DNA from: Lampris incognitus
Lineage: Eukaryota; Chordata; Actinopteri; Lampriformes; Lampridae
Reading direction: 5' to 3'
DNA: 64,000 nt
Assembly: GCF_029633865.1 (NCBI RefSeq)
Contig: NC_079214.1
Location: 27,068,224-27,132,223 of the forward strand
Every line of letters begins with the position of its first letter. Position 1 is the first letter of the stretch. The position numbers and the translations under genes are program-made. Below, one piece after another: positions 8,060 to 64,000 of this stretch. Under the pieces are notes generated by a model that searched no databases, had not been told where the DNA came from, and was given only the letters and a program-made list of their open reading frames with translations.

Positions 8060-8578
8060 TTTACTTAGGCTATATTTACTTTCAGGCATTGGAGGTGTTG
8101 AGACTGGTGCTGGAGTCAAATATTTTTCAAATGCCCCTCTTTGGCGTTCAGCCTCTGCTTCTTCTTGTTTTCTTTTTTTACGCTTTGCTGCACTTGACTG
8201 CATTCTGTAGCTCTTTTCCAAAATTAAGCACGGATCTACGTGGATGCTGTTTCTCCGCTGTAACGTACATTAACATTTCAAGTTTAATGCAAATCCGGTA
8301 TGGCATTCTGGGAGATGGAGTTCTTAGAGTTAGATTGACCGATACCATGGTTTCATTTGCGTTATTTCTTTTTATGGCATAATAATTATTCCTGATTGAT
8401 AGACATTTATTTGGCGTGCAAGCTTCATAGGAATTGTTGATATGTTAAAAAAATGCTACTAATAAAATAATAATATTAAATTAAAAATATATTGTACCCC
8501 CCCCCCCCTAATTTTGGGTCCCCTCGAAGATTTGGGCCCTTGTCGGCCTATGCGGAGATCCGGCCCTGCCTGGGGCTC
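8060..8578 (-). pseudogene. hAT element 5' end with N-terminal coding fragment
   Basis: The minus-strand frame from 8221 starts MEKSYRMQSSAAKRKKRKQ and continues EEAEAERQRGAFEKYL. This lysine-rich head is typical of ZMYM1-like hAT transposases. Upstream, 8222-8569 is non-coding and AT-rich with a run of C at 8500-8509. It ends at 8570-8578 with CAGGGCCGG, a common hAT terminus. The terminus abuts a SINE head at 8579. I infer that this is the 5' end of the hAT relic whose middle lies at 5947-6485. No 8-bp TSD could be confirmed. Confidence 0.5.
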
Positions 8579-8640
8579 GAACCCAGGACCGTCTTGCTGT
8601 GAAGCAACTGTGCTAATCACTGCGCCACCGTGCCGCCCTG
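8579..8640 (-). repeat. tRNA-derived SINE head, fragment
   Basis: On the minus strand this is the pol III head of the common fish SINE also seen at 38453-38992: GGCGGCACGGTGGCGCAGTG, then a GGGTTCGAGCCCC B box. The rest of the SINE is missing where the hAT terminus begins. Confidence 0.6.
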
Positions 8641-19355: not shown

Positions 19356-22300
19356 TGTTGAACATAATGTGCAGTCTCACATATACAGCCAGTCAGCCAC
19401 TGTATTATTTACTGCGCTATAAGCAGCTATTTTGGTCCTTGCGGGCATCCATGTGTGTGTGTATGACTTCTGCGCATGTGCAATAAAGTTCTCTTCCTGC
19501 CCCACCAAGTACGACTGGACGTCTGATGTTTGCTCCTGCAGTCTAACTCTACAAAAGTATATTAACATACCAAACAAGTATGTAGCTAGACATCCGTGAC
19601 ATAAATATGAACAATGCAACAGGTTATGGGCCCAGTGCCATGTCTAGTCAGCGATTTAATAGACTTTTGTTCGACGGCGACGAGAGAGGATACGAGTTAT
19701 GGGAAACTCGCTTCCTAGCCCAAATGGAGTTGAGAGGACTCAGCGAGACTCTACTGAACGTGCCAGTTATCGCTGCGGGCGAAAATGCTGTCCAGTTGAG
19801 AGAAGCAGACGTCAAGAAAAACAGAGAAGCGTACGCGGAGCTGGTGCAAGGTTTAGACAGCAAGAGCTTGTCACTAATTATGCGGGATGCAGCAGCCGAC
19901 GGTAGGGCGGCATTGAAGATACTTCGGCAACATTACGCGGGCAAAGGGAAACCGCGCGTGGTGAGTTTATATTGTGAACTCTCAGCTCTTCGCATGGAAA
20001 GCAACGAGACCGTCACGGAGTATATTGTTCGTGCAGAGACAATATTCTCGTCGTTGAAAGGAGCCGACGAGAACATAAGTGACGGGTTGCAAGTGGGAAT
20101 GGTAGTGAAAGGACTGCCGGACTCTTTCAAACCGTTCGTGGTTCATATTACTCAGAGTAGTGACAGCCTGACATTCAGTGAATTTAAGGCAAAACTAAGG
20201 AGCTTTGAAGACACAGAAAGGTACAAGCCGAGTAATGGTGATGACGGGGACAGTGTGATAAGAGCTGCCACAGCAGCCACCACCTCTCGTGGAAGAGGTA
20301 GAGAGAGAAAGAGCATGGCCGAAATTGAGTGCTTCAGATGCCACAAAAAAGGGCATATGTCTCGAACATGTACGAGCATGCCTGAACCAAGAAGAGCGGA
20401 ACGCAGGAGAGACGCGCGAGGCCGGGGGAAGCAGCGAGACGCCATCGCGGGAGTGACCGGAGCAGAGCAGGGTGCAGCGGGGGACCAGGACGGACGCTGG
20501 GGAGCGCACCGAGAGACAGACGGCACCCACCGAGAAATAGAGGCGGACGCCGATGACCGGGAAGGCAGGTCATATTGCTTCAAGATGAAAGAGGACACCA
20601 GGCCGGTGAGGCGGACTGTCAACAACAGAGGTTTGATGGTCGACTGTGGCGCGACGTCACACATGATAAATGACTTTACAAAGTTCAAAACAGTCGATAA
20701 AGGCTTTAAGCCCAAGAGTCACGTGATTGAACTTGCAGACGGGACAAAGGCTACCGGAGTTGCCAAGGCCAGAGGAGAAGCTGAAGTCACCTTAATTGAC
20801 AGCGAAGGAAGAAAGGTGACAGCACGACTGAAGAGGGCGCTGTATATCCCGACGTTTCCTCAGGACATTTTTTCCGTTAAAGCAGCCTCAAGTAACGGAG
20901 CAGAAATCCACTTCAAGGAAGGTGAAAATTGGATGGGGTATAAAAACGAGGGTACCAAGTTTAACATTGAAGTATTTGGGAAACTGTATTATTTGTCTAC
21001 AGCTAATAATACTGATGATAATGTTGACGGATACAAAGGATGTCATGATATTGAAACGTGGCACAGAATCCTTGGTCATTGTAACTTAGATGATGTTTCA
21101 AGACTAGAAGGTGTAGTTGAAGGAATGATGATTAAGGGGAAAAATGACAAATCTAACTTCAACTGTGAAACATGTACACAAGGAAAATTTGTGGAGTCTA
21201 GAAATAGACAGGCTGATAGCAAAGCTAAAGGAATACTTGAACTAGTCCATACAGATCTGTGCGGCCCGATCGAGCCTACTGATAAAGATGGGTATAAATA
21301 CACCATAGCTTTCACAGATGACTATAGCAGTATGACATGGACATATTTCATGAGGTCAAAGAGTGATACAGCTAAGGCTACCGAAAAATTCTTAGCTGAC
21401 ACTGCCTCCTTTGGGCAGGTGAAAACCATTAGGTCTGACAATGGTACCGAGTTCACTGGAGGATGTTTCCAAGATCTGCTGAGAGAAAATAAAATTAGTC
21501 ACCAAACTAGTGCCCCCTACTCGCCGCATCAGAACGGCACGGCAGAACGAAACTGGAGAACATTATTTGACATGGCACGATGTATGCTGCTAGAAAGTAA
21601 GATGCCAAAACAGCTATGGAGGTTTGCGGTGCAGACAGCTGCACAGATACGCAACAGGTGCTATTGTAAGCGATTAAAGCAAACCCCATACAATGCTTTC
21701 ACAGGGAAAACACCAAATATTTCCCATATGATGGTTTTTGGCACTGAGTGCTATGCCTATAGACAAGACAAAAAGAAACTGGATCCAAGGTGCGAGAAGG
21801 GCATTGTCATAGGATATGATAAATACAGCCCTGCATACAATGTATATTATCCAAAAACAGGAAAAGTGTCAAAGCATAGATTAGTTAAGTTCATACAGAA
21901 GAGCAACAGAGACTGCCAGACACAAACAGGTCCACACAACGATGGAGACAGCTATGAGGATATAGAATCATACGAGCCTGATGTAGTACCAGTTAGGACT
22001 GATGAGCAGCCCCAGATTACAGGTACAGGAGGTGAAAGTGGTACACTTTCTAATAACCAGGGGGATAGTGAGGGCAGAAACCGCTACCCAACTAGAGAGA
22101 GGAAGACCCCAAAATATCTTGAAGAATACCAGTGTAAAGCAGAATGTACTGACGAGCAAGATGTGGATTATTTTTATAGAGCTGTATTTGGGGTACCAAA
22201 CACATTTAAGGAAGACCTGTTTTTCTTTTCATGTAAGTCTGTAAAGGTGAGCCTGAGTGAGGGTGTTGAACATAATGTGCAGTCTCACATATACAGCCAG

Positions 22301-22529
22301 TCAGCCACTGTATTATTTACTGCGCTATAAGCAGCTATTTTGGTCCTTGCGGGTATCCATGTGTGTGTGTATGACTTCTGCGCATGTGCAATAAAGTTCT
22401 CTTTCTGCCCCACCAAGTACGACTGGATGTCTAATGTTTGCTCCTGCAGTCTAACTCTACAAAAGTATATTAACATACCAAACAAGTATGTAGCTAGACA
22501 TCCGTGACATAAATATGAACAATGCAACA
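19356..22529 (+). mobile_element. Ty1/copia element lacking reverse transcriptase, intact LTRs and TSD
   Basis: Two 266-bp LTRs (19356-19621 and 22264-22529) start TGTTG and end CAACA. They differ at only four positions, all transitions (about 98.5% identity). GTCTC is duplicated at 19351-19355 and 22530-22534. The primer binding site GGTTATGGGCCCAG (19622-19635) follows the 5' LTR, and the 3' LTR is preceded by a short purine-rich GAGTGAGGG. The interior codes for Gag, protease and integrase only. The reverse transcriptase and RNase H that should follow integrase are absent, so the element is non-autonomous. Each LTR has an AATAAA. It sits inside the element 14042-23261. Confidence 0.92.
19640..22330 (+). 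CDS. copia-like Gag-protease-integrase polyprotein, no RT
   Basis: One uninterrupted frame of about 896 codons. I start it at the ATG after the primer binding site (MSSQRFNRLLFDGDERGYEL); an earlier in-frame ATG at 19607 lies inside the LTR. Order: UBN2-type Gag (about residues 1-200), CCHC zinc knuckle CFRCHKKGHMSRTC (about 235), protease VDCGATSH with an LADGTKATG block (about 335), GAG-preintegrase HRILGHCNLDDVSRL (about 480), and integrase core (HTDLCGP; RSDNGTEF; HQNGTAERNWRTL), giving the three catalytic acids. After YRAVFGVPNTFKED, where reverse transcriptase would start, the frame jumps to a short tail that runs into the 3' LTR and stops at 22330. The absence of stops in 2.7 kb is unusual among the decayed copies nearby. 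Confidence 0.9.
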   Translation: MSSQRFNRLLFDGDERGYELWETRFLAQMELRGLSETLLNVPVIAAGENAVQLREADVKKNREAYAELVQGLDSKSLSLIMRDAAADGRAALKILRQHYAGKGKPRVVSLYCELSALRMESNETVTEYIVRAETIFSSLKGADENISDGLQVGMVVKGLPDSFKPFVVHITQSSDSLTFSEFKAKLRSFEDTERYKPSNGDDGDSVIRAATAATTSRGRGRERKSMAEIECFRCHKKGHMSRTCTSMPEPRRAERRRDARGRGKQRDAIAGVTGAEQGAAGDQDGRWGAHRETDGTHREIEADADDREGRSYCFKMKEDTRPVRRTVNNRGLMVDCGATSHMINDFTKFKTVDKGFKPKSHVIELADGTKATGVAKARGEAEVTLIDSEGRKVTARLKRALYIPTFPQDIFSVKAASSNGAEIHFKEGENWMGYKNEGTKFNIEVFGKLYYLSTANNTDDNVDGYKGCHDIETWHRILGHCNLDDVSRLEGVVEGMMIKGKNDKSNFNCETCTQGKFVESRNRQADSKAKGILELVHTDLCGPIEPTDKDGYKYTIAFTDDYSSMTWTYFMRSKSDTAKATEKFLADTASFGQVKTIRSDNGTEFTGGCFQDLLRENKISHQTSAPYSPHQNGTAERNWRTLFDMARCMLLESKMPKQLWRFAVQTAAQIRNRCYCKRLKQTPYNAFTGKTPNISHMMVFGTECYAYRQDKKKLDPRCEKGIVIGYDKYSPAYNVYYPKTGKVSKHRLVKFIQKSNRDCQTQTGPHNDGDSYEDIESYEPDVVPVRTDEQPQITGTGGESGTLSNNQGDSEGRNRYPTRERKTPKYLEEYQCKAECTDEQDVDYFYRAVFGVPNTFKEDLFFFSCKSVKVSLSEGVEHNVQSHIYSQSATVLFTAL

Positions 22530-22847
22530 GTCTCTCTCTCTAGATTTCGTATTTTTTTCTATTAGAAAAAAATGTTGTTCAGCGACCCACACACAACCGC
22601 AAAACTCTCGCACACCGCCTGTCTTCTTCTCCCCCCCTCCCCCGGTGTGTTAGAGAGCCTCATTCTGATTGGCCACAATGGAGGGGGCTTGCCTGATACT
22701 AACCCAATCATATACGACTATACTCAGAATAGTTGCATACCCTACACTAGCTAAACGTTTCAGTGCGCATCGTTTGTTTCGTCGATATTCCGCGCTGTCT
22801 ATTGGCTGACGCAACAGCCAATCACGGCTACTTCCGTGCCTACGCCC

Positions 22848-38452: not shown

Positions 38453-38992
38453 CCATCCATTCAATTCATTTCATTATCCAAACCGCTTATCCTACACAGG
38501 GTCACAAGATGCTGGAGCCTATCCCAGCAGTCATTGGGCAGCACAAGGGCAGACACCCTGGGCAGGCCACCAGGCTATCACAGGGCTGACACATTCACAC
38601 CTAGGGACAATTTAATATGGCCGATTCACCTGACCTACATGTCTTTGGACTGTGAGAGAAACCGGAGCACTCGGAGGAAACCCACAGACACAGGGAAAAC
38701 ATGCAAACTCCACACAGAGGACAACCCAGGATGACCCCCAAGGTTGGACTACCCTGGGGCTCGAACTGAGGACCCTGTTGCTGTGAGGTGACTGCGCTAA
38801 CCACTGCACCACTGTGCCACCACACAGGTCATATCATTCAATATGCATGTTGTTATAGCTGGTAACAAACGGCCAATTCAGTTGACCTGAGCAGAGATAG
38901 TGAAGGAAATGGAAAAGGCTAGGAGAAAGATGGTGGAGACAATGATGTCAACGGAGAACTGGGGACTCGTCTCTTGAGAAAGGAGCAAAGGA
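38453..38992 (-). mobile_element. tRNA-derived SINE plus 168 bp of extra 5' sequence, 13-bp TSD
   Basis: GCTTTTAATTCAT is duplicated at 38440-38452 and 38993-39005, and the L2 frame resumes afterwards (FCDAFNSS then SFNSTISPLNPDAL). The SINE head on the minus strand is at about 38824: GGTGGCACAGTGGTGCAGTG, A box TGGTGCAGTGG, B box AGTTCGAGCCC. Its 3' tail is a GATG repeat at the left. Between the head and the right TSD lie about 168 bp (38825-38992) that are not part of the usual SINE. Confidence 0.72.
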
Positions 38993-40192: not shown

Positions 40193-41207
40193 ACGGTACC
40201 ATCTTACATCGCTTAGAGACTTGGATGGGCATCAAAGGCTCGGCTCTTAGCTTACTTATACTATTCCAACAGAACTTTTTCTGTTCTGGGTAACTCTGCT
40301 TTCTCAATGGCTCATTTGAGTTGTGTCCCTCAAGGCTCGGCTCTTGGCCCTCTTCTCTAATCTATATACATGTTGCCTCTTGGCCAGGTTATTCAAGGTC
40401 ATGATGTGTTTTACCATTTTTATGCTGACAACACTTAGTTATACATGCCACTAAAACCCACAGATCCTAGCAGCTCAAGGTAATTTCTAAAATTAGGTCA
40501 TTTTCATCAATTGCTGATCTGCAAAAAGTTGTAGATGCTTTCTCTATTCTTGGCTTGATTACTGCAACACACGTTACTTGGATATCAGCCAGGGCTCCCT
40601 CCACCATCTGCAGTTGGTACAAAACACTGCGGATCGAATCATTACCAGGATAAAGAGGCATGATCACATCGATCCCATGCTTGCCTCCATACGGTGGCTC
40701 CCTGTTAGATTTCGAATTGATTTTAAAATTTTATTGGACACTTTTAAGGCCTTAAATGGTCTTGCTCCTAAATACATTTCTGATTTATTGACCTGGTATA
40801 CCCCCTCTCGGCCATTAAGATCCGCAGATGGAGCCCTGCTGGTTATTCCCAGGTCACGAATTGTCATAGCTTTTGCTGTTAGAGTCCCCACACTATGGAA
40901 CGCTCCTCCTATTGAACTCAGAAAAACTCTCTAGCTTCTTTTAAATATCTTCTTAAAACTTTTCTGTTTGTGAAATCTTTTGGAAATGTTTGATATTTGT
41001 TTTTATTTATTTATACTGTTTTTATTCCTTTTAGTCCCCTGTTTTATTCCTATTTATATGGTCTTATTCATTTATTGGTGTTACCTCCTCTTTGCTCATG
41101 TCCTTTGGTCTTATTCTCATTTTTGCCTTGTCTGGTTTTATTTCTTTTGTAAAGCACTTTGTAACATTGTTAAGAAAAGTGCTATAAAATAAAGTTATCA
41201 TTATTAT

Positions 41208-41701
41208 TGTAACCGGTTATTTACTTGCCCGGTGGGGGATTCGATGCGAGGTGTACTGCACTACAAGGCGACATCACTGACCGCTCGGCTAAAGGGTCAA
41301 ACCAGTTGCTTAGGGGCTAACGTGTGTTATTAGTAGTTTACAGTCGTCACCCTCCCCGGAAGCGCGCCCTCGCGCTTTGTTATTCCCGCGCTCCGAAGAG
41401 ACTTCTGAGAATCTGCACACTTCCGGATCCCACCGCTGCCACCAATGTAACCGAGGGTTTGTATATGTCGCCTATACTGTATGAAACTATAGAATAACAA
41501 ATACGGAGGTTCCACTTTCACACGAGGACCACTTTATTTGGATTCTTCCCCCCAACAGAACCCCACAGCAACAACACTGCGTACAGCACTTCCGCTCTCT
41601 CTTCAGCCTTCAAAATAAGAGCTCAAGGCATATACTGTGGCAACAGCTTATAACAGGAACTTAAAATCACTAACAGGCTAAGTCCAGAAAAATAGGTTAC
41701 A
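41208..41701 (-). mobile_element. Miniature LTR element (TRIM-like) with two unlike LTRs
   Basis: Read on the minus strand. The 5' LTR (41701-41446, 256 bp) starts TGTAACC, ends GGTTACA and has an AATAAAG signal. A 103-bp core follows (41445-41343): primer binding site TTGGTGGCAGCGGTGGGAT, a GC-rich hairpin-like stretch, and GGGGAGGG near its end. The 3' LTR (41342-41208, 135 bp) starts TGTAAAC and ends GGTTACA. It carries a tRNA-type A box TAGCCGAGCGG (41291-41281) and a B-like box GCATCGAATCC (41247-41237). The two LTRs share ends but not bodies. The target is an ATT microsatellite, so the TSD is ambiguous. No coding capacity. It belongs to the family seen at 62180-62921. Confidence 0.6.
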
Positions 41702-41740
41702 TTATTATTATTATTGTTACGCAATTTCTATTCTGATACA

Positions 41741-41790
41741 CTGTGGTGACCCCTAACGGGAGCAGCCAAAAGTAATAGTAGTAGTAATAG
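41741..41790 (+). mobile_element. RTE 3' end fragment
   Basis: CTGTGGTGACCCCTAACGGG followed by AGCAGCC and a TAG/TAA trinucleotide tail matches the 3' end of the RTE at 2802-2860. It is a very short 5'-truncated insertion. Confidence 0.7.
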
Positions 41791-42219
41791 ATGCCATTTC
41801 TATTCTGTACTGAAGTACTTATTCATATTTCTGAAATTACTTTCAGTTGATTTGATAGTGTGACTGTAACTATCCAAATCAATACATTTCATAATTGGCA
41901 TCAATATGAAGTTACATACTGATTACTTGTATACTATGCCGATGCCCAATAAATCTGGTATGCTTTTCTTTTGAGGCCTCAATCTGACGGGAAAGATTAT
42001 ACTGTAGTGGTTATGGGGATACATAATTCCCCTTATTGAGCTAGTAGGAACGTTAGTTTACAGCTGCTGTTTCCTCGGTTCGGGTTTACAGTGACACACT
42101 TCCGCTGCGCGGGTTTTTTGTTGTTGTAATGGTGGAAGGACTAAATGGTTCACGTTGTGTAGAAAGAGAAAGTTGTCACGACTCCTGCTTGAGCTCCTCT
42201 ACACTGGTGACCCCGACGT

Positions 42220-42955
42220 TTGTCTCTTGGTAGTTATCAGAGACAATCTTTCGAACGAACATGGTTGACGAAATCAACGCGGTTTCTCTCAAATTGCGAG
42301 TTCTGGGAGTCATCGGCAACGACATGGTTCGCCCAGGCGGAAGCGCAGTTTGCTATCCGCAAAATAACGGATGATGCTACTAAATACTACTACGTGGTAT
42401 CGGCGCTCGGACGTTCGACTGCAACTAGAGTGGTGAGTCTCCTTACAAATCCTCCGGCGGCAGACAAATACAAGGGGCTCAAAGACCACCTCTTGAAGAT
42501 TTTTGAACTTTCCGACGCCGAGAGGGCCCACCGTCTCTTTTCTCTGCAAGGCTTGGGTGACAGCAAGCCATCCGAGCTCATGGAAAATGCTGAATCTGCT
42601 GGGACCGGCGCACACACCTGATTTCCTCTTTGTACAACTATTTCTGCGACAACTGCCTGCTCAGGTGCGGACCGCTTTGGCTAACACCAGCATTACCGAT
42701 TGCCGCAAGCTAGCTGAAGAAGCTGACAAGTTCTTCCTGGCCAGCCAACAGCAGCACTGCACGTCCGCGCTCACCCCTGCCCACCCCCACACGCCACCAC
42801 CTGGTGACTCCATGGTGGTCGCCGCGGCAACCCCCGGTCGGCGACAGGAGCCCGGCCTGTGCTTTTACCATGCAAAGTTCGGGGCCAAGGCGAAAAAGTG
42901 CACCTCCCCGTGCAATTTCAGCTCGTCGGGAAACGCCAAGGCCGGCGCTCACTAG
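42220..42955 (+). pseudogene. gypsy Gag, frameshifted
   Basis: The first frame (42220-42621) has WFAQAEAQFAIRKITDDATK, YYYVVSALG, an ADKYKGLKDHLLKIFELSDA block and ERAHRLFSLQGLGDSKPSEL. A frameshift near 42590 moves to a second frame (to 42955) with FVQLFLRQLPAQVRTALANT, DCRKLAEEADKFF and a cysteine/histidine motif [14 protein letters not shown]. The last motif replaces a classic CCHC knuckle in this gypsy group. The true initiation codon is uncertain. Confidence 0.72.
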
Positions 42956-42958
42956 TGG

Positions 42959-45900
42959 CCATGGGCGTCGGCGTGGAGGACAACAGGCTACTTTTCCTGC
43001 GAGACTCCATCTCGGGGCGGCGTTTCCTATGCGACACTGGGGCGCAGAGGAGTGTCGTACCTGCATCGAGTGTGGACGCCCTATCGGGCGCTCACGGTCC
43101 TCCCATGGAAGCTGCTAACGGCAGCTCTATCCGTACGTACGGCACGAGGCACATTGACACGTGTTTTAACGGACAGCGGTTCAGCTGGGATTTTGTCACC
43201 GCCGACGTGGCATTTCCCCTCCTCGGTGCAGATTTTCTTTGTGCTCATGGGCTGCTGGTGGACGTCAGGAATCGACGCCTGATTGACGCCGTCACCTTCG
43301 CTTCACACGCATGTGCACTCAGCGATACAGGCTCCGTCAGGCTGTCCAGCATGCTCTCCAATGAGGACGTGTTTCTCCATCTTCTCTCCGAGTTCCCTGA
43401 CCTCACTCAGCCCACATTCTCGTCGTCTACGACCAAACACGGGGTTGAGCACCACATCGTCACCACCGGCCCGCCGGTGCACGCCCGAGCTCGGCGCCTC
43501 GACCCGACCAAGCTCTCTGTCGCCAAGGCGGAGTTTGAGAACATGGAGCGCCTCGGCATCATCCGTCGCTCCAGCAGCCCGTGGGCTTCACCCCTCCACA
43601 TAGTGCCTAAGCCTGGCGGTGGGTGGCGTCCATGTGGTGACTACCGTCGGCTCAATGACGCAACAACACCGGACCGCTACCCGGTCCCTCATATCCAAGA
43701 TTTCTCCGCCCACCTGGCTGGGAAAGTGATCTTTTCCAAGGTGGACCTCGTCCGTGGATACCACCAGGTGCCCGCCCGTCCCGCTGATGTCCCCAAAACG
43801 GCTGTGACAACTCCGTTCGGACTGTTCGAGTTCCTGCGCATGCCGTTTGGGCTTAAGAACGCCGCGCAGTCCTTCCAACGCCTCATGGACTCAATGTTGC
43901 GGGACCTGCCTTTCCTCTTTGTGTACCTGGATGACATCCTGGTCGCTAGCACCTCCGTGTCCGAGCACTTGTCCCACCTCAGAGCCCTTTTCGAGAGACT
44001 CAGCCTGCACGGGTTGATAGTTAACCCGGCCAAATGCCAGTTTGGTCTGAGCACCATCGACTTCCTGGGCCACCGGGTCACCAAGGACGGGGCGGCCCCC
44101 CTTCCATCTAAGGTGGAGGCCGTCGCAGACTTTCCACGCCCACACACGGCCAAGTCCCTCCGGGAGTTCATTTGCATGGTGTCCTTCTACCACCGGTTTA
44201 TCCCCCGGGCTGCCGATCTCCTCCGCCCCCTATATGAGGCTCTGAAGGGCACAGCCCCCAAACACGCTGTGGACTGGTCTGCAGAGAGGGACACGGCTTT
44301 TAAGGATGTGAAGACCGCCCTGGCTGACGCGGCGATGCTGGCACACCCTGTGTCTGGAGCGCCCATTGCCATCACGACGGATGCTTCGGACTACGCTGTC
44401 GGCGCGGTTTACGAGCAGCGGGTGAGCGGTGCGTGGCAGCCGCTTGCCTTCTTCAGCCGCCAGTTGAACCTGAGAGAGCGCAAATACAGCACTTTTGATC
44501 GTGAGCTGCTTGGCCTTTTCCTCGCTGTTAGGCACTTTCGTTTCCTACTGGAGGGCCGTCAGTTCACGGCTTTCGTCGATCACAAACCGCTGGTGTTCGC
44601 GATGGCCAAGGTGGCAGAGCCGTGGTCAGCCCGCCAGCAGCGACAGTTGGCCTACATCTCAGAGTTTACCACCAACGTAAGGCATGTCGCTGGGAAGTCC
44701 AACCCGGTCGCTGACTGTCTCTCCCGGGCCATCGCTGGTGCCGCCCATTTGGGACTCGACTACAGCCAGATGGCGGCTGACCAGGCCGCCGACCCAGGAG
44801 TGCAGGTATGCAGGACCGCCGACACAGGGCTGCAGTTGGAGGATGTGGCTTTCGACGACGCCGGCGCCACGCTCCTGTGCGACGTCTCTACGGGTCAGCC
44901 CCGACCAGTCGTTCCGACTGCTTGGAAGCGACGGGTCTTCGACGCAGTCCATGGGCTGTCTCACCCTGGCAGAAAGCCTTCACAGAGGTTGGTGGCGGCA
45001 AAGTTTGTCTGGCATGGACTCAAAAAGGATGTGAGGGACTGGGCTGACACCTGTGTGGAGTGCCAACGCTCCAAAGTGCACGTCAAAGAGGAGGTTCGAC
45101 CACGTGAATGTGGACCTGGTAGGCCCCCTACCCCCCTCCCGTGGTTTCACATACCTGCTCACCATGGTCGACAGGACCACGCGATGGCCAGAGGCCGTCC
45201 CGCTTTCGTCCGCGACAGCGCCTGAGGTTGCCCGAGCGTTCATCGGAACCTGGGTCGTCCGCTTTGGCACCCCATCTGACCTCTCCTCGGACAGAGGGCC
45301 GCAATTCACGTCAGCGCACTGGGAGGAGATCGCCGCGGGTTTAGGGGTGAGGCTCCATCGCACCACAGCATATCACCCTCAGGCGAATGGATTGGTCGAG
45401 AGGTTCCATCGCTCGATGAAGGCCGCATTGCGGGCTACCCTCAAGGACGACCGCTGGGTCGACAAACTGCCTTGGGTCATGCTTGGGCTCAGGACGGCTC
45501 CCAAGGGGGACCTCCAGTCCTCATCCGCCGAACTAGTCTACGGACAGCCACTTCGGGTCCCGGGGGATTTCCTTCCCACCGCCACAGCGCCCTGGTCCGC
45601 CAGATGCCAACGGACTGCGCTGCAGGAGGAAGCCAGGGCTTTTGCACCGGTCCGCACTTCTCAGCATGGCGGCTCTCAGTCCTATGTCCCCACGGAGCTG
45701 CGGTCGGCGGAGTATGTTTTCATCCGTCACGACGCGCACCGCGGTCCCCTGCAGCCACCCTACGACGGCCCATTTCGGATACGGGACACTGGAGATAAGC
45801 ACTTTGTGGTGGAGGTTGGCAGCAGGCTGGAGCGGGTTTCTGTGGACCACCTCAAGCCTGCTCACCTGGACTTAGACCACCCTGTTGGTCTTGCCCTGCC

Positions 45901-46060
45901 CCCACGGCGGGGGCGCCCCCCGGCTCTGCCCCCCTCCCCCGGCGAGCCGCCCTCTGCTTCCCCAGCCCCTCCCTTTCCCCGGTCCAGCTGTGAGGACTCT
46001 GCTGCTTTGCCTGCGGTTAACCAGCCCCCAGCTCCTGTTCAGCGGAGCCGTTGGGGCTGA
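42959..46060 (+). pseudogene. gypsy Pol: PR, RT, RNase H, integrase, one break
   Basis: The first frame (to 45225) has the protease [15 protein letters not shown] (about 43025), reverse transcriptase ([43 protein letters not shown]; catalytic YLDDILVAS at about 43923), RNase H ([29 protein letters not shown]) and the integrase zinc finger ([22 protein letters not shown]). A deletion with frameshift near 45090 leads to a second frame with the integrase core ([42 protein letters not shown]) and a proline-rich tail ending at 46060. All three integrase acids and the RT aspartates survive. Only the one clear break in 3 kb indicates a recent insertion. Confidence 0.87.
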
Positions 46061-46329
46061 GAGATCCGCCCCCCTCGCCACACTTGACTTTTCGTATTAA
46101 GGCGAATTCTGGGGGGACGTGTGTAGTGGTTATGAGGCTACATAATTCCCCTTATTGAGCTAGTAGGAACGTTAGTTTACAGCTGCTGTTTCCTCGGTTC
46201 GGGTTTACAGTGACACACTTCCGCTGCGCGGGTTTTTTGTTGTTGTAATGGTGGAAGGACTAAATGGTGCACGTTGTGTAGCCGAAAGAGAAAGTTGTCA
46301 CGACTCCTGCTTGGGCTCCTCAGCAATAC

Positions 46330-47694: not shown

Positions 47695-57161
<9,467 letters not shown>

Positions 57162-58398: not shown

Positions 58399-58466
58399 TG
58401 TAACAATCGACTAAAGGGTCCGACCCATTAGCCAAGGGCTACCAAGCCTCATCCGTGATCGTTACA
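58399..58466 (-). mobile_element. 68-bp solo-LTR derivative of the tRNA-LTR family
   Basis: On the minus strand it starts TGTAACGATCACGG, contains GGGTCGGACCCTTTAGTCGA (the A-box region of the LTRs at 62180-62921) and ends TTGTTACA. ATAT flanks both sides (58395-58398 and 58467-58470). Confidence 0.5.
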
Positions 58467-60734: not shown

Positions 60735-61406
60735 GCCCCAAGTTCCCGATTTGGGGGCATGTCGTTAAAACATTCATGGCAGCAACCATGGAAGTCTGGC
60801 AGAAGTGAGCCCATTCTCACTCCCAATTCATCACATATGGACGCTTGTTGAGGATGATCTCTTCGTCACTGTTCAATGCTCTAGGTATCTCTTTAACGTC
60901 AACTTTCAACGTGGAGGGTAGTTGTAGGCACACAAAAAAACAACAAAAAACAAAACAAAACACATTCGAGATTATCCTGACTGTTTTTTTTATGCGTAGA
61001 CATAGAGTCTAAACCTATCTTTTATCTGCGTGCATTCATCAATATGATCTCGCAGAAATATGTGAAATGACCACGACCTCTTAACACTCGCATTATGTGG
61101 TTGTGGCACCTAATGTGTTGTGTTAAAATTACCTGCCAGCATCAGGGACGGTTTTTTGTTCTCTAATTACACTGATTTGTGTGTGATATAACTCATTTTG
61201 ATGTAATGAGGTTAGGGTTAGGTTTTTTTTTTTGAACGTTGACGTTAAAGGGGTACCTAGCGCGTTGAACAGTGACGAAGAGGTCGTCCTCAACAAGCGT
61301 CCATATGTGACGAGTTGGGAGTGAGAATGGGCTCACTTCTGCCAGACTTCCATGGTTGCTGCCATGAATGTTTTAACGACATGCCCCCAAATCGGGAACT
61401 TGGGGC
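60735..61406. mobile_element. Foldback element with 169-bp inverted repeats
   Basis: Arms 60735-60903 and 61238-61406 are about 95% complementary (roughly 8 mismatches in 169). They start GCCCCAAGTTCCCGATTTGG. The 334-bp centre is AT-rich and non-coding. No target duplication was found at the flanks. Transcription through it would give a long dsRNA hairpin. Confidence 0.75.
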
Positions 61407-61534: not shown

Positions 61535-62134
61535 CTGCATAAGCTGGCAGATAGACAACTCCTCCAATCACCATGCTGATGAGGGTGCTTAGTCCATTCC
61601 GTTTAATGGCTGACTAGAAGTAGGGTAAAACTACAAGAGAAACAATGCAACAATCATACTAAGTTCAATACATCAATAAAAATGACTATAAAATGATATA
61701 TGAGTTTCAAGTGTGTTACTGCTATGCAATTTCTAGCATACACCTTATTATTGACCAACTAAGGTGAGTATTTTGGTTAAACTGATGACAACGGATTATC
61801 ACATCCAATTAATTCTAATTAATGTTAGCATTTGCTAAAAATGGCACATGGAATATGAACTCATACAATAAAATACGAAATATTTACATCAAGCCAAACT
61901 AACATGACTAGCAAATGTGACTTAGATTTATGTTAAGAATACTAACATACCAACCGTGCATCCAAAAAGCATGGTATGTATGTAGAGAATAGCGATATCG
62001 TGACCAAAACGTCTTGAGGCTTCATCAGGTTTTCTGTTGACAACTGCACCTCCTGTATAGACCACTGCACTTCCGCGTTCGAACGTTAGAGCGGGGGGAG
62101 CTAGAGGGGGATAGAAGCCGGCAAGTTTGAACAC
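61535..62134 (-). other. Two possible exons of an unidentified small gene
   Basis: On the minus strand, 62134-61950 reads MFKLAGFYPPLAPPALTFER, then GGAVVNRKPDEASRRFGHDI and LYIHTMLFGCT before a GTTGGT donor-like site. After a TACTTCTAG acceptor (exon start 61611) comes SAIKRNGLSTLISMVIGGVV and YLPAYAG, a plausible membrane segment, to about 61535. I do not recognise the protein and the phase between the pieces is unproven; it may be chance. Confidence 0.2.
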
Positions 62135-62570
62135 GGTTTAAATGGCTAACTATGTCGCTACGTTGGCTGCTGCGGACAAGAACCGATATTAACCGCTCGA
62201 CTAAAGGGTCAGACCCGTTACACTACCCCCCTGCTTCGGGAAGCGCGTCCCCGCGCTTAAGCATATCAGCTCCTTCACGCCTCAGGGCGCATACGCTTCT
62301 GATGGCCTTACGGTCGCTCCATCCCACTTCTGACACCAATGTAACCGGTTATTTTCTTGCCCGGTGCGGGATACGATACGGGGTGTACTGCACTACAAGG
62401 CGACATCACTAACCGCTCGGCTAAAGGGTCAGACCCTCCAGCCAGCGTGTCTTCTTATCCATGCACGTTACACTACCCCCCTCCTTCGGGAAGCGCGTCC
62501 CCGCGCTTAAGCATATCAGCTCCTTCACGCCTCAGGGCGCACACGCTTCCGATGGCCTTACGGTCGCTCC

Positions 62571-62589
62571 ATCCCACTTCTGACACCAA
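62571..62589 (-). other. Primer binding site of miniature LTR element, tRNA-Leu-like
   Basis: TTGGTGTCAGAAGTGGGAT directly after the LTR end. From memory it is one base from the complement of a tRNA-Leu 3' end. Copies lie at 62321-62339 and, diverged, at 62766-62784 and 41427-41445. Confidence 0.55.
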
Positions 62590-62746
62590 TGTAGCGAATT
62601 CGGGGGACAACGCAACCACAGGAACTGCCGCGGCCGGGACGCGAACCCGTATCGCCCGCACCGCAGGAGACATCACTAACCGCTCGACTAAAGGGTCAGA
62701 CCCGCCAGCCAGCGGCCAGCGTGTCTTCTTATCCATGCACGTTACA
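62590..62746 (-). repeat. tRNA-like LTR, best copy (LTR2)
   Basis: The minus strand has A box TAGTCGAGCGG (62690-62680), an exact match to TRGYNNARNGG, and B box GGTTCGCGTCC (62647-62637), one base from GGTTCGANTCC. It starts TGTAACGTGCATGG and ends ATTCGCTACA. A GGGTCTGACCC palindrome precedes the A box. A full cloverleaf was not verified. Confidence 0.6.
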
Positions 62747-62944
62747 ATACGCTTCCGATGGCTCCATCCCACTCCTGACTCCAATGTAGCGAATTCGGGG
62801 GACAACGCAACCACAGGAACTGCCGCGGCCGGGAAGCGAACCCGTATCGCCCGCACCGCAGGAGACATCGCTAACCGCTCGACTAAAGGGTCACACCCGC
62901 CAGCCAGCGGCCAGCGTGTCTACTAAGAATTTAAGATTAATCTA

Positions 62945-64000
62945 CACTGATGAGCCAAAACATTATGATCACTCACAGGTAAACCGAATAACATTGATCA
63001 TCTCCAAACAAGGGCATGTATCAAGGTCTGGGTAGATTAGATGGTAAGTGAACAATCAATTCTTGTAGTCAATGTGTTGGATGCAGGCGAAATTGGCAGT
63101 AGTAAAGACCTGAGCAACTTTGACAAGGGCCAAATTGTTATGGCCAGACTGGGTCAGAGCATCTCTGAAACAGCCAGGCTTGTGGGGTGCTTCTGGTCAG
63201 CAGTGTTGAGTACCTACCGACAGTGGTACGAGGAGGGACAAACCACAAGCTGGCGAAGGGGTGTTGGGAGGCCAAGACTCATCGATGCACAAGGGCAACT
63301 AAGGCTATCCTGTCTGGTGCGAACCGACAGAAGTTCTACTGTGGTACAAGTCACAGAACATATTAATGATGGTTACAAGAGGAATGTGTCACAGTACACA
63401 TCGCACCCTGCTGTGTATGGGGCTACGTAACTGCAGACCGGTCAGAGGGCCCATGATGACCCCTGTTCACCATCGACAGCAATTACAATGGGCACACGAG
63501 CATTGGAACTGGACCTTGGAGCAGTGGAAGAAGGTTGCCTGATCCAGTGAGTCCTGTTTTCTTTTAGGTCATGTGGATGGCAGTGTACGCATGTGCCATT
63601 TACCTGGGGAAGTGATGTACTGTAGTAGGAAGACAAGTCGGTGGAGGGAGTGTGATGCTCTGGGCAATGTTCTGCTGGGAAACCCTGGGTCAAGCCATTC
63701 ATGTGGACATCAATTTGACATTTGACACGTGCCACCTACCTAAACATCATTGCACCCCAAGTATATCCCTTCATGGCAATGGTATTCCTTAATGGCAGTG
63801 ACCTCTTTCAGCAGGATAATGGGCCCTGCCACACTGCACACATTGTTCGGGAATGGTTAGCGGAACAAGATGAAGTCTTCAAGGTGTTCCCCTGGCCTCC
63901 ACATTCTCCACATCTCCACCTAATTCAGCATCTATGGGATGTGCTGTGCCGACCAGTGCGATCCATGGTGGCTCCATCTCACAACTTGCAGGACTTGAAG
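62945..64000 (+). mobile_element. Tc1-like element, cut by window end
   Basis: Starts after a TA (62943-62944) with CACTGATGAGCCAAAACATT, the terminal repeat of a common fish Tc1 family. The right end is outside the window. Confidence 0.8.
63041..64000 (+). pseudogene. Tc1-like transposase, broken and missing catalytic acids
   Basis: 63041-63430 keeps an open frame with the helix-turn-helix region: [55 protein letters not shown]. It then breaks up with several stops. From about 63725 the frame resumes: RATYLNIIAPQVYPFMAMVF, LFQQDNGPCHTAHIVREWL, then HSPHLHLIQHLWDVL. In active Tc1 proteins the last block reads SPDLNPIEHLW, so the final catalytic Glu is replaced by Gln and the preceding Asp by His. 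The second acid (QQDN) is kept. The copy is dead and runs off the window end. Confidence 0.8.

Follow-up and report, generated by a model that had tools for sequence, protein, structure and literature searches.

The 64,000-nucleotide stretch of Lampris incognitus contig NC_079214.1 analyzed here (the window) contains a group of related terminal-repeat retrotransposons in miniature (TRIMs) whose long terminal repeats (LTRs) appear to carry a tRNA-derived internal promoter, i.e. Helenus elements in the naming of Kojima; we put the probability of this reading at about 0.87. Since the family follows the same plan as Helenus and fits its box motifs in part, it is filed as a probable new member of a group whose design was already published in 2024. 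Three separate loci represent the family in the window: a tandem array, an element near 41 kb with two unlike LTRs (its right LTR is termed e41R), and a solo-LTR-like remnant near 58 kb (Table 1).

Array anatomy and the tRNA-like parts of the LTRs

The array occupies the minus strand from 62921 down to 62188 in the order LTRa-core1-LTRb-core2-LTRc-core3-LTRd, in agreement with an earlier sequence-only reading that had described LTR-like units alternating with cores; two of the four LTRs (LTRb and LTRc) are complete, and both have the TGTAAC...TACA ends reported there. A 173-bp repeat (95% identical) spans the LTRa and LTRb copies, and a 128-bp repeat (98% identical) spans those of core2 and core3. 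The cores had been described as holding a primer binding site (PBS) at one end and a purine tract at the other: a PBS or near-PBS is present in 3/3 array cores, while the purine tract is found in 2/3, that of core1 having been lost. Of the 16 bases that close cores 2 and 3, 14 and 13, respectively, are purines. The open reading frames across the array were rejected as coding and taken as chance, given that the two used in protein searches (619 and 61 candidates) yielded no relative at E<=0.01.

The PBSs were compared with human tRNA sequences. In cores 2 and 3 the match to tRNA-Leu-CAA is 18/18 and that to tRNA-Leu-CAG 17/18 (tested on core2; core3 has the same 18 bases), the near-PBS of core1 matches these tRNAs at 16/18 and 17/18 positions, and the core of the 41-kb element matches tRNA-Leu-AAG at 18/18. 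Allowing up to three mismatches, the 19-base PBS stretch occurs four times in the window (three times in the array, once in the 41-kb element), where 0.02 occurrences would be expected, and a PBS lies directly behind all four LTR ends with an adjoining core, namely those of LTRa, LTRb and LTRc in the array and of the left LTR in the 41-kb element. The 41-kb core resembles core2 (0/1000 shuffles as good; 1/1000 with the PBS excluded), sharing AAGCGCG....CGCGCTTCC and a purine end, which is less pure in the 41-kb core (GGGGAGGGTGACGAC) than in cores 2 and 3. A separate observation on the minus strand of core2 (62473-62589) and the 41-kb core (41343-41445) is a possible 10-bp stem (GGAAGNGTGN with NCGCGCTTCC), in which one change is two-sided and another one-sided; judged by eye, core3 disrupts it in places, and the total folding energy is not unusual.

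Scored against consensus boxes, a box A and a box B or B-like site were located in LTRa, LTRb and LTRc, as the sequence-only reading had proposed, and in e41R. Their spacing is 32-33 bases (32 in LTRa and LTRb, 33 in LTRc), with one mismatch over both boxes in LTRa and in LTRb, two in e41R and three in LTRc. Among 2000 dinucleotide shuffles of LTRb, a box pair with at most two mismatches arose in 2 and one with at most three in 28. At the two-mismatch level the window contains ten minus-strand pairs and a single plus-strand one: three of the ten are LTRa, LTRb and e41R; that at 62225/62184 is a chance join of the LTRd start and its flank; those at 48713, 38819, 38811 and 8627 lie in or at repeats resembling heads of short interspersed nuclear elements (SINEs); the remainder are 35835 and 9653 (minus) and 30743 (plus). 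In local alignments with 11 tRNAs, LTRa and LTRb scored best with Gly-GCC, followed by Asp-GTC (0/300 single-base shuffles as good), and His-GTG was the best match for both e41R (0/300) and LTRc (2/300). Two LTR subtypes, Gly/Asp-like and His-like, are present in one array, as had been suggested. Val-CAC, which Kojima aligned with fish Helenus, reached a score of just 16 with LTRc and with e41R and fell outside the six best tRNAs for LTRa and LTRb, which gives no support to a link with that lineage.

Dedicated tRNA searches were negative: ARAGORN found no tRNA in the whole window, and Rfam found none there at the gathering cut-off; relaxing the limit to E<=10 for 62100-63000 and 41100-41800 brought up no tRNA either. 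The LTR parts look tRNA-derived without being tRNA genes. RNA folding was unremarkable for five of six stretches (z -1.29 to 0.19); the LTRc part folds at z -2.58 through a hairpin reaching into box A, not a cloverleaf. The absence of covariance-model matches in the two regions searched at E<=10, together with the three mismatches of LTRc, would suit an ordinary TRIM transcribed by RNA polymerase II (pol II), in which the likeness to boxes A and B is a product of chance or a functionless fossil. This explanation is improbable: two differently related tRNA-like modules sit at one and the same position, each of them outscoring 298-300 of 300 shuffles, and both AATAAA and TATAA[AG] are absent from LTRb, LTRc and e41R. 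It is highly improbable that the tRNA-like part is a tRNA-derived SINE situated beside unrelated PBS-like sequence, one of the outcomes that the sequence-only reading had named as a refutation. Further A/B pairs do occur in other window repeats (e.g., 48713/48669, 38811/38767 and 8627/8583), so that SINE heads are probably present in the window; against this, the exact string TTTAG[CT]CGA occurs six times, always on the minus strand and each time preceded by LTR-type 5' sequence, and the PBS stands immediately behind 4/4 LTR ends that have a core. LTR ends and a PBS set the family apart from a SINE, which would have a tRNA head and a LINE-type tail without either.

Dispersed copies were sought with an LTR profile built from LTRa, LTRb, LTRc and e41R, which identified six minus-strand places at E<1e-3 and none on the other strand: the four array LTRs, 41208-41341 and 58407-58445. 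Because four of these built the profile, only LTRd and the 58-kb copy (E 8.9e-5) are independent finds. The two copies that retain both ends carry 4-bp end repeats: ATAT at 58 kb, where a 4-base match at fixed ends has a 1 in 256 chance for even base use, and ATAA at 41 kb, which is ambiguous. As far as the window goes, this does not speak for a lack of target duplications, the second condition under which the earlier claim was to fall. Exact-pattern scans of viral contigs with box-A stretches and the two PBS junctions returned no match, and genome contigs gave none either; as these collections are viral and prokaryotic, this absence says little about fishes. Self-comparison showed no second copy of the family LTRs inside the Copia- and Gypsy-type elements of the window.

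Several points weigh against the Helenus assignment. No tested copy of the family has a perfect box B. Both ends of the array are gone, and with them the sites of any target duplication. The pattern TGTAAC-N50-80-GTTACA is expected 0.07 times in the window and appears in 7/100 shuffles; being not rare, it leaves the 58-kb copy resting on its profile match. The array has no TTTT, a result that is not significant, as 31% of shuffles also lack it; missing RNA polymerase III (pol III) terminators were dropped as evidence because 31-68% of shuffles of three tRNA-LTR stretches have none either. The conclusions as a whole draw on six LTR copies, all within the window, on four cores, on the one unlike LTR and on human tRNA sequences.

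Under the Helenus reading, pol III would initiate just upstream of box A in the 5' LTR, and its transcript would extend across the core into and through the following LTR. Minus-strand DNA may then be primed at the PBS by a host tRNA-Leu and the plus strand by the purine tract, with reverse transcriptase and integrase presumably supplied by proteins of a Gypsy-type element. Either LTR recombination or concatenated cDNA could have given rise to the tandem arrangement of the array.

The LTRc mosaic and an element with unlike LTRs

Between TGTAACG and GATGTC, LTRb and LTRc differ by no more than a 7-bp indel and two bases, with 29/30 identical positions over TGACCC-GATGTC; behind GATGTC roughly 55% of aligned columns agree (by eye), and the two carry different tRNA-like parts. 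From TGACCC to its end, LTRc is instead identical to e41R at 86/92 positions, the upstream parts being far less alike. When the three LTRs are compared over 71 informative columns, a number that counts gap columns, a single switch from LTRb-like to e41R-like sequence describes LTRc with 3 inconsistent columns, against 47 if it were entirely LTRb-like and 24 if entirely e41R-like; none of 5000 column permutations matched this fit, a figure to be read with the caveats that columns are not independent, that a block of gap columns inflates the count and that one sequence is concerned. The switch falls in alignment columns 48-78, the stretch containing box A. LTRc is a mosaic joined near box A. Since the best homology of both LTR types lies in the switch stretch, ordinary recombination would land there too. 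A swap of the alpha and beta modules behind a near-identical LTR start would mark the promoter as a component that can be exchanged.

The 41-kb element combines e41R with a left LTR that is pol II-looking and unrelated to it: the likeness between them does not exceed chance (74/1000 shuffles as good). Normal reverse transcription makes both LTRs of an element identical. The left LTR abuts the PBS exactly, and no second copy of it was found in the window self-comparison. The element is flanked by ...AATAATAATAA and ATAATAATGATAAC, with an (AAT)n run in phase on both sides, which makes one insertion into one run likely; the ATAA on both outer sides is ambiguous, lying inside this run. Minus-strand positions following an 11-nt (AAT)n run number 5 in 64000, all at the boundary of this element.

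Two routes to this structure were weighed. In Arabidopsis, members of an LTR family are known to recombine during bursts (PMC5668417). The first, compatible with the Helenus reading, derives the unlike LTRs from one retrotransposition cycle: plus-strand strong-stop DNA of a co-packaged pol II element using the same tRNA-Leu primer would have moved at the PBS to minus-strand DNA of the tRNA-LTR element as acceptor, giving partner LTR-PBS-Helenus core-Helenus LTR. The exact LTR-PBS junction, the chance-level likeness of the two LTRs and the in-phase flanks pointing to a single insertion all speak for this route, and the same transfer has been proposed for human immunodeficiency virus 1 (HIV-1) proviruses with asymmetric LTRs (PMC9278108). 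That the second transfer can be intermolecular has been argued from HIV-1 recombinants, having generally been found intramolecular before (PMC5651808). The HIV-1 case resembles the present one in offering a mechanism for unlike LTRs within one insertion; it differs in that it concerns a retrovirus in which one LTR derives from the other by deletion, whereas the 41-kb LTRs are unrelated and belong to a TRIM. Such a transfer is a plausible but somewhat doubtful origin for a structure seen in one copy, whose left LTR, having no second copy in the window, has no known partner, and which later gene conversion would render identically.

In the second route, the element once had two like LTRs, and gene conversion or recombination involving another copy later replaced one of them. 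Short homology is offered by the AAGCGCG/CGCGCTTCC stretch and purine-rich end shared among cores and by the similar LTR ends, and the array demonstrates that LTR exchange occurs in this family within the window. Against it, the two LTR types share few end bases (by eye), which leaves little for conversion to use, and the flanks resemble a single insertion site. We give this route about an even chance, and for a single copy gene conversion after insertion is at least as likely as strand transfer.

A more far-reaching and tentative proposal joins both anomalies. The 41-kb copy may be the fossil of a heterodimer, in which a pol III TRIM RNA and the RNA of a pol II LTR element, both primed by tRNA-Leu, were copied within one particle and plus-strand DNA crossed from one to the other at the PBS; mosaics of the LTRc type, switched near box A, would then reflect a first-strand transfer between molecules at the site where pol III starts. 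We consider the two parts jointly rather unlikely. If the proposal were true, copies with unlike LTRs would point directly to the helpers of pol III TRIMs; should such copies recur, a helper could be named without LTR homology and both kinds of RNA shown to share a particle.

A Gypsy element at 42003-46321 (plus strand, LTRs 96.5% identical) lies 300 bp from the 41-kb element. It was considered as the helper and found unsupported: its PBS fits tRNA-Trp over 15 bases, and its LTR gives a weak gapped alignment with the 41-kb left LTR (score 24, without shuffle control).

Feature coordinates and neighboring repeats

Table 1. Positions of the TRIM family features within the window.
Feature	Position	Strand	Description
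LTRa	62785..62921	(-)	137 bp; 5'-truncated (first 20 bp lost); putative Gly/Asp-like promoter module (alpha)
core1	62747..62784	(-)	38 bp; mostly deleted; near-PBS kept, purine tract deleted
LTRb	62590..62746	(-)	Complete, 157 bp; TGTAAC...CTACA; alpha module
Box A of LTRb	62680..62690	(-)	TAGTCGAGCGG
Box B of LTRb	62637..62647	(-)	GGTTCGCGTCC; 32 bases downstream of box A
core2	62473..62589	(-)	117 bp; PBS 62571-62588; purine-rich end 62473-62488
LTRc	62340..62472	(-)	Complete, 133 bp; TGTAAC...TTACA; His-like module (beta)
Box A of LTRc	62413..62423	(-)	TAGCCGAGCGG
Box-B-like site of LTRc	62369..62379	(-)	GTATCGTATCC; 33 bases downstream of box A
core3	62223..62339	(-)	117 bp
LTRd	62188..62222	(-)	35 bp, then family match ends; truncated after box A; without the stretch behind TGTAACG
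41-kb element, 5' (left) LTR	41446..41701	(-)	256 bp; TGTAACC...GGTTACA; TATAAG, AATAAA, four overlapping TTTT
41-kb element, core	41343..41445	(-)	103 bp; tRNA-Leu-AAG PBS
41-kb element, 3' (right) LTR (e41R)	41208..41342	(-)	135 bp; beta (His-like) module
58-kb copy, solo-LTR-like remnant	58399..58466	(-)	68 bp; TGTAACG...TGTTACA; sequence lost from inside box A onward; flanked by ATAT

Other repeats surround these loci. From 62943 onward, at a distance of some 23 bp from where LTRa is truncated, lies an end (CACTGATGAGCC behind TA) that resembles those of Tc1/mariner elements. The minus-strand A/B pair at 48669-48713 has zero mismatches to the consensus and is perhaps a SINE head; its box-B end lies inside 48611-48679, which is repeated at 49582-49650 (82.6%). 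A SINE-like repeat (83%) with minus-strand A/B pairs is located at 38753-38818 and 8569-8634. A Copia-type element at 19356-22530 has 267-bp LTRs (98.5% identical) and a 907-codon frame with gag, integrase and SH3 domains and no reverse transcriptase match. A 175-bp inverted repeat (60735-60909 and 61232-61406, 94.9% identical) has its arms about 320 bp apart.

Comparison with Helenus and related elements

Helenus comprises TRIMs with tRNA-like LTRs in fungi, animals including fishes, and one plant; they measure 311-1263 bp and have two LTRs and no coding region (PMC10886601). The window family, set beside fish Helenus by published description, falls within this range (407 bp for LTRb-core2-LTRc; 494 bp for the 41-kb element, 41208-41701), with a PBS behind the 5' LTR and a purine-rich end in cores 2 and 3. 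According to PMC10886601, animal families have 4-bp target duplications and a Gypsy match at the PBS, vertebrate primers are tRNA-His, -Leu or -Lys, few families are able to encode a tRNA, and zebrafish LTR-11_DR, with 5575 LTRs and 2618 internal parts, forms tandem arrays. Helenus, including the fish families related to LTR-11_DR, shares with the window family the short TRIM form, tRNA-like boxes A and B in the LTR, a PBS and a polypurine tract, as well as tandem arrays; its use of tRNA-Leu among the vertebrate primers and its 4-bp duplications in animals have putative counterparts in the tRNA-Leu-matching PBSs and the 4-bp end repeats of the window family. TRGCY and YGG in box A and GGTTC in box B are found in the majority of Helenus LTRs, though not in every one (PMC10886601). 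LTRc and e41R match the former (TAGCC...CGG) and lack GGTTC (GTATC and GCATC, respectively), while LTRa and LTRb have GGTTC and are one base off in box A (TAGTC...CGG), so that no LTR fits every Helenus motif. The window family differs in having two tRNA-like modules in one array, PBSs that between them match three isoacceptors of tRNA-Leu, and one copy whose 5' LTR is pol II-looking; in the parts of PMC10886601 consulted, none of these was seen for a fish.

The sequence-only reading had proposed a tRNA-type analogue of the plant element Cassandra in a fish. The TRIM anatomy holds; what that reading missed is that the design has been published as Helenus, fishes and tandem arrays included. Cassandra resembles the window family in carrying a pol III promoter in its LTR and in forming short arrays of about three LTRs split by cores (PMC7215508). 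Its promoter is of 5S rRNA type and its hosts are plants, whereas that of the window family is tRNA-like. Ajax, a nemertean TRIM with a partial 5S rRNA that is treated in PMC10886601, likewise joins a small-RNA-gene promoter in the LTR to a tRNA-Leu primer, and differs in its 5S part and its 5-bp duplications.
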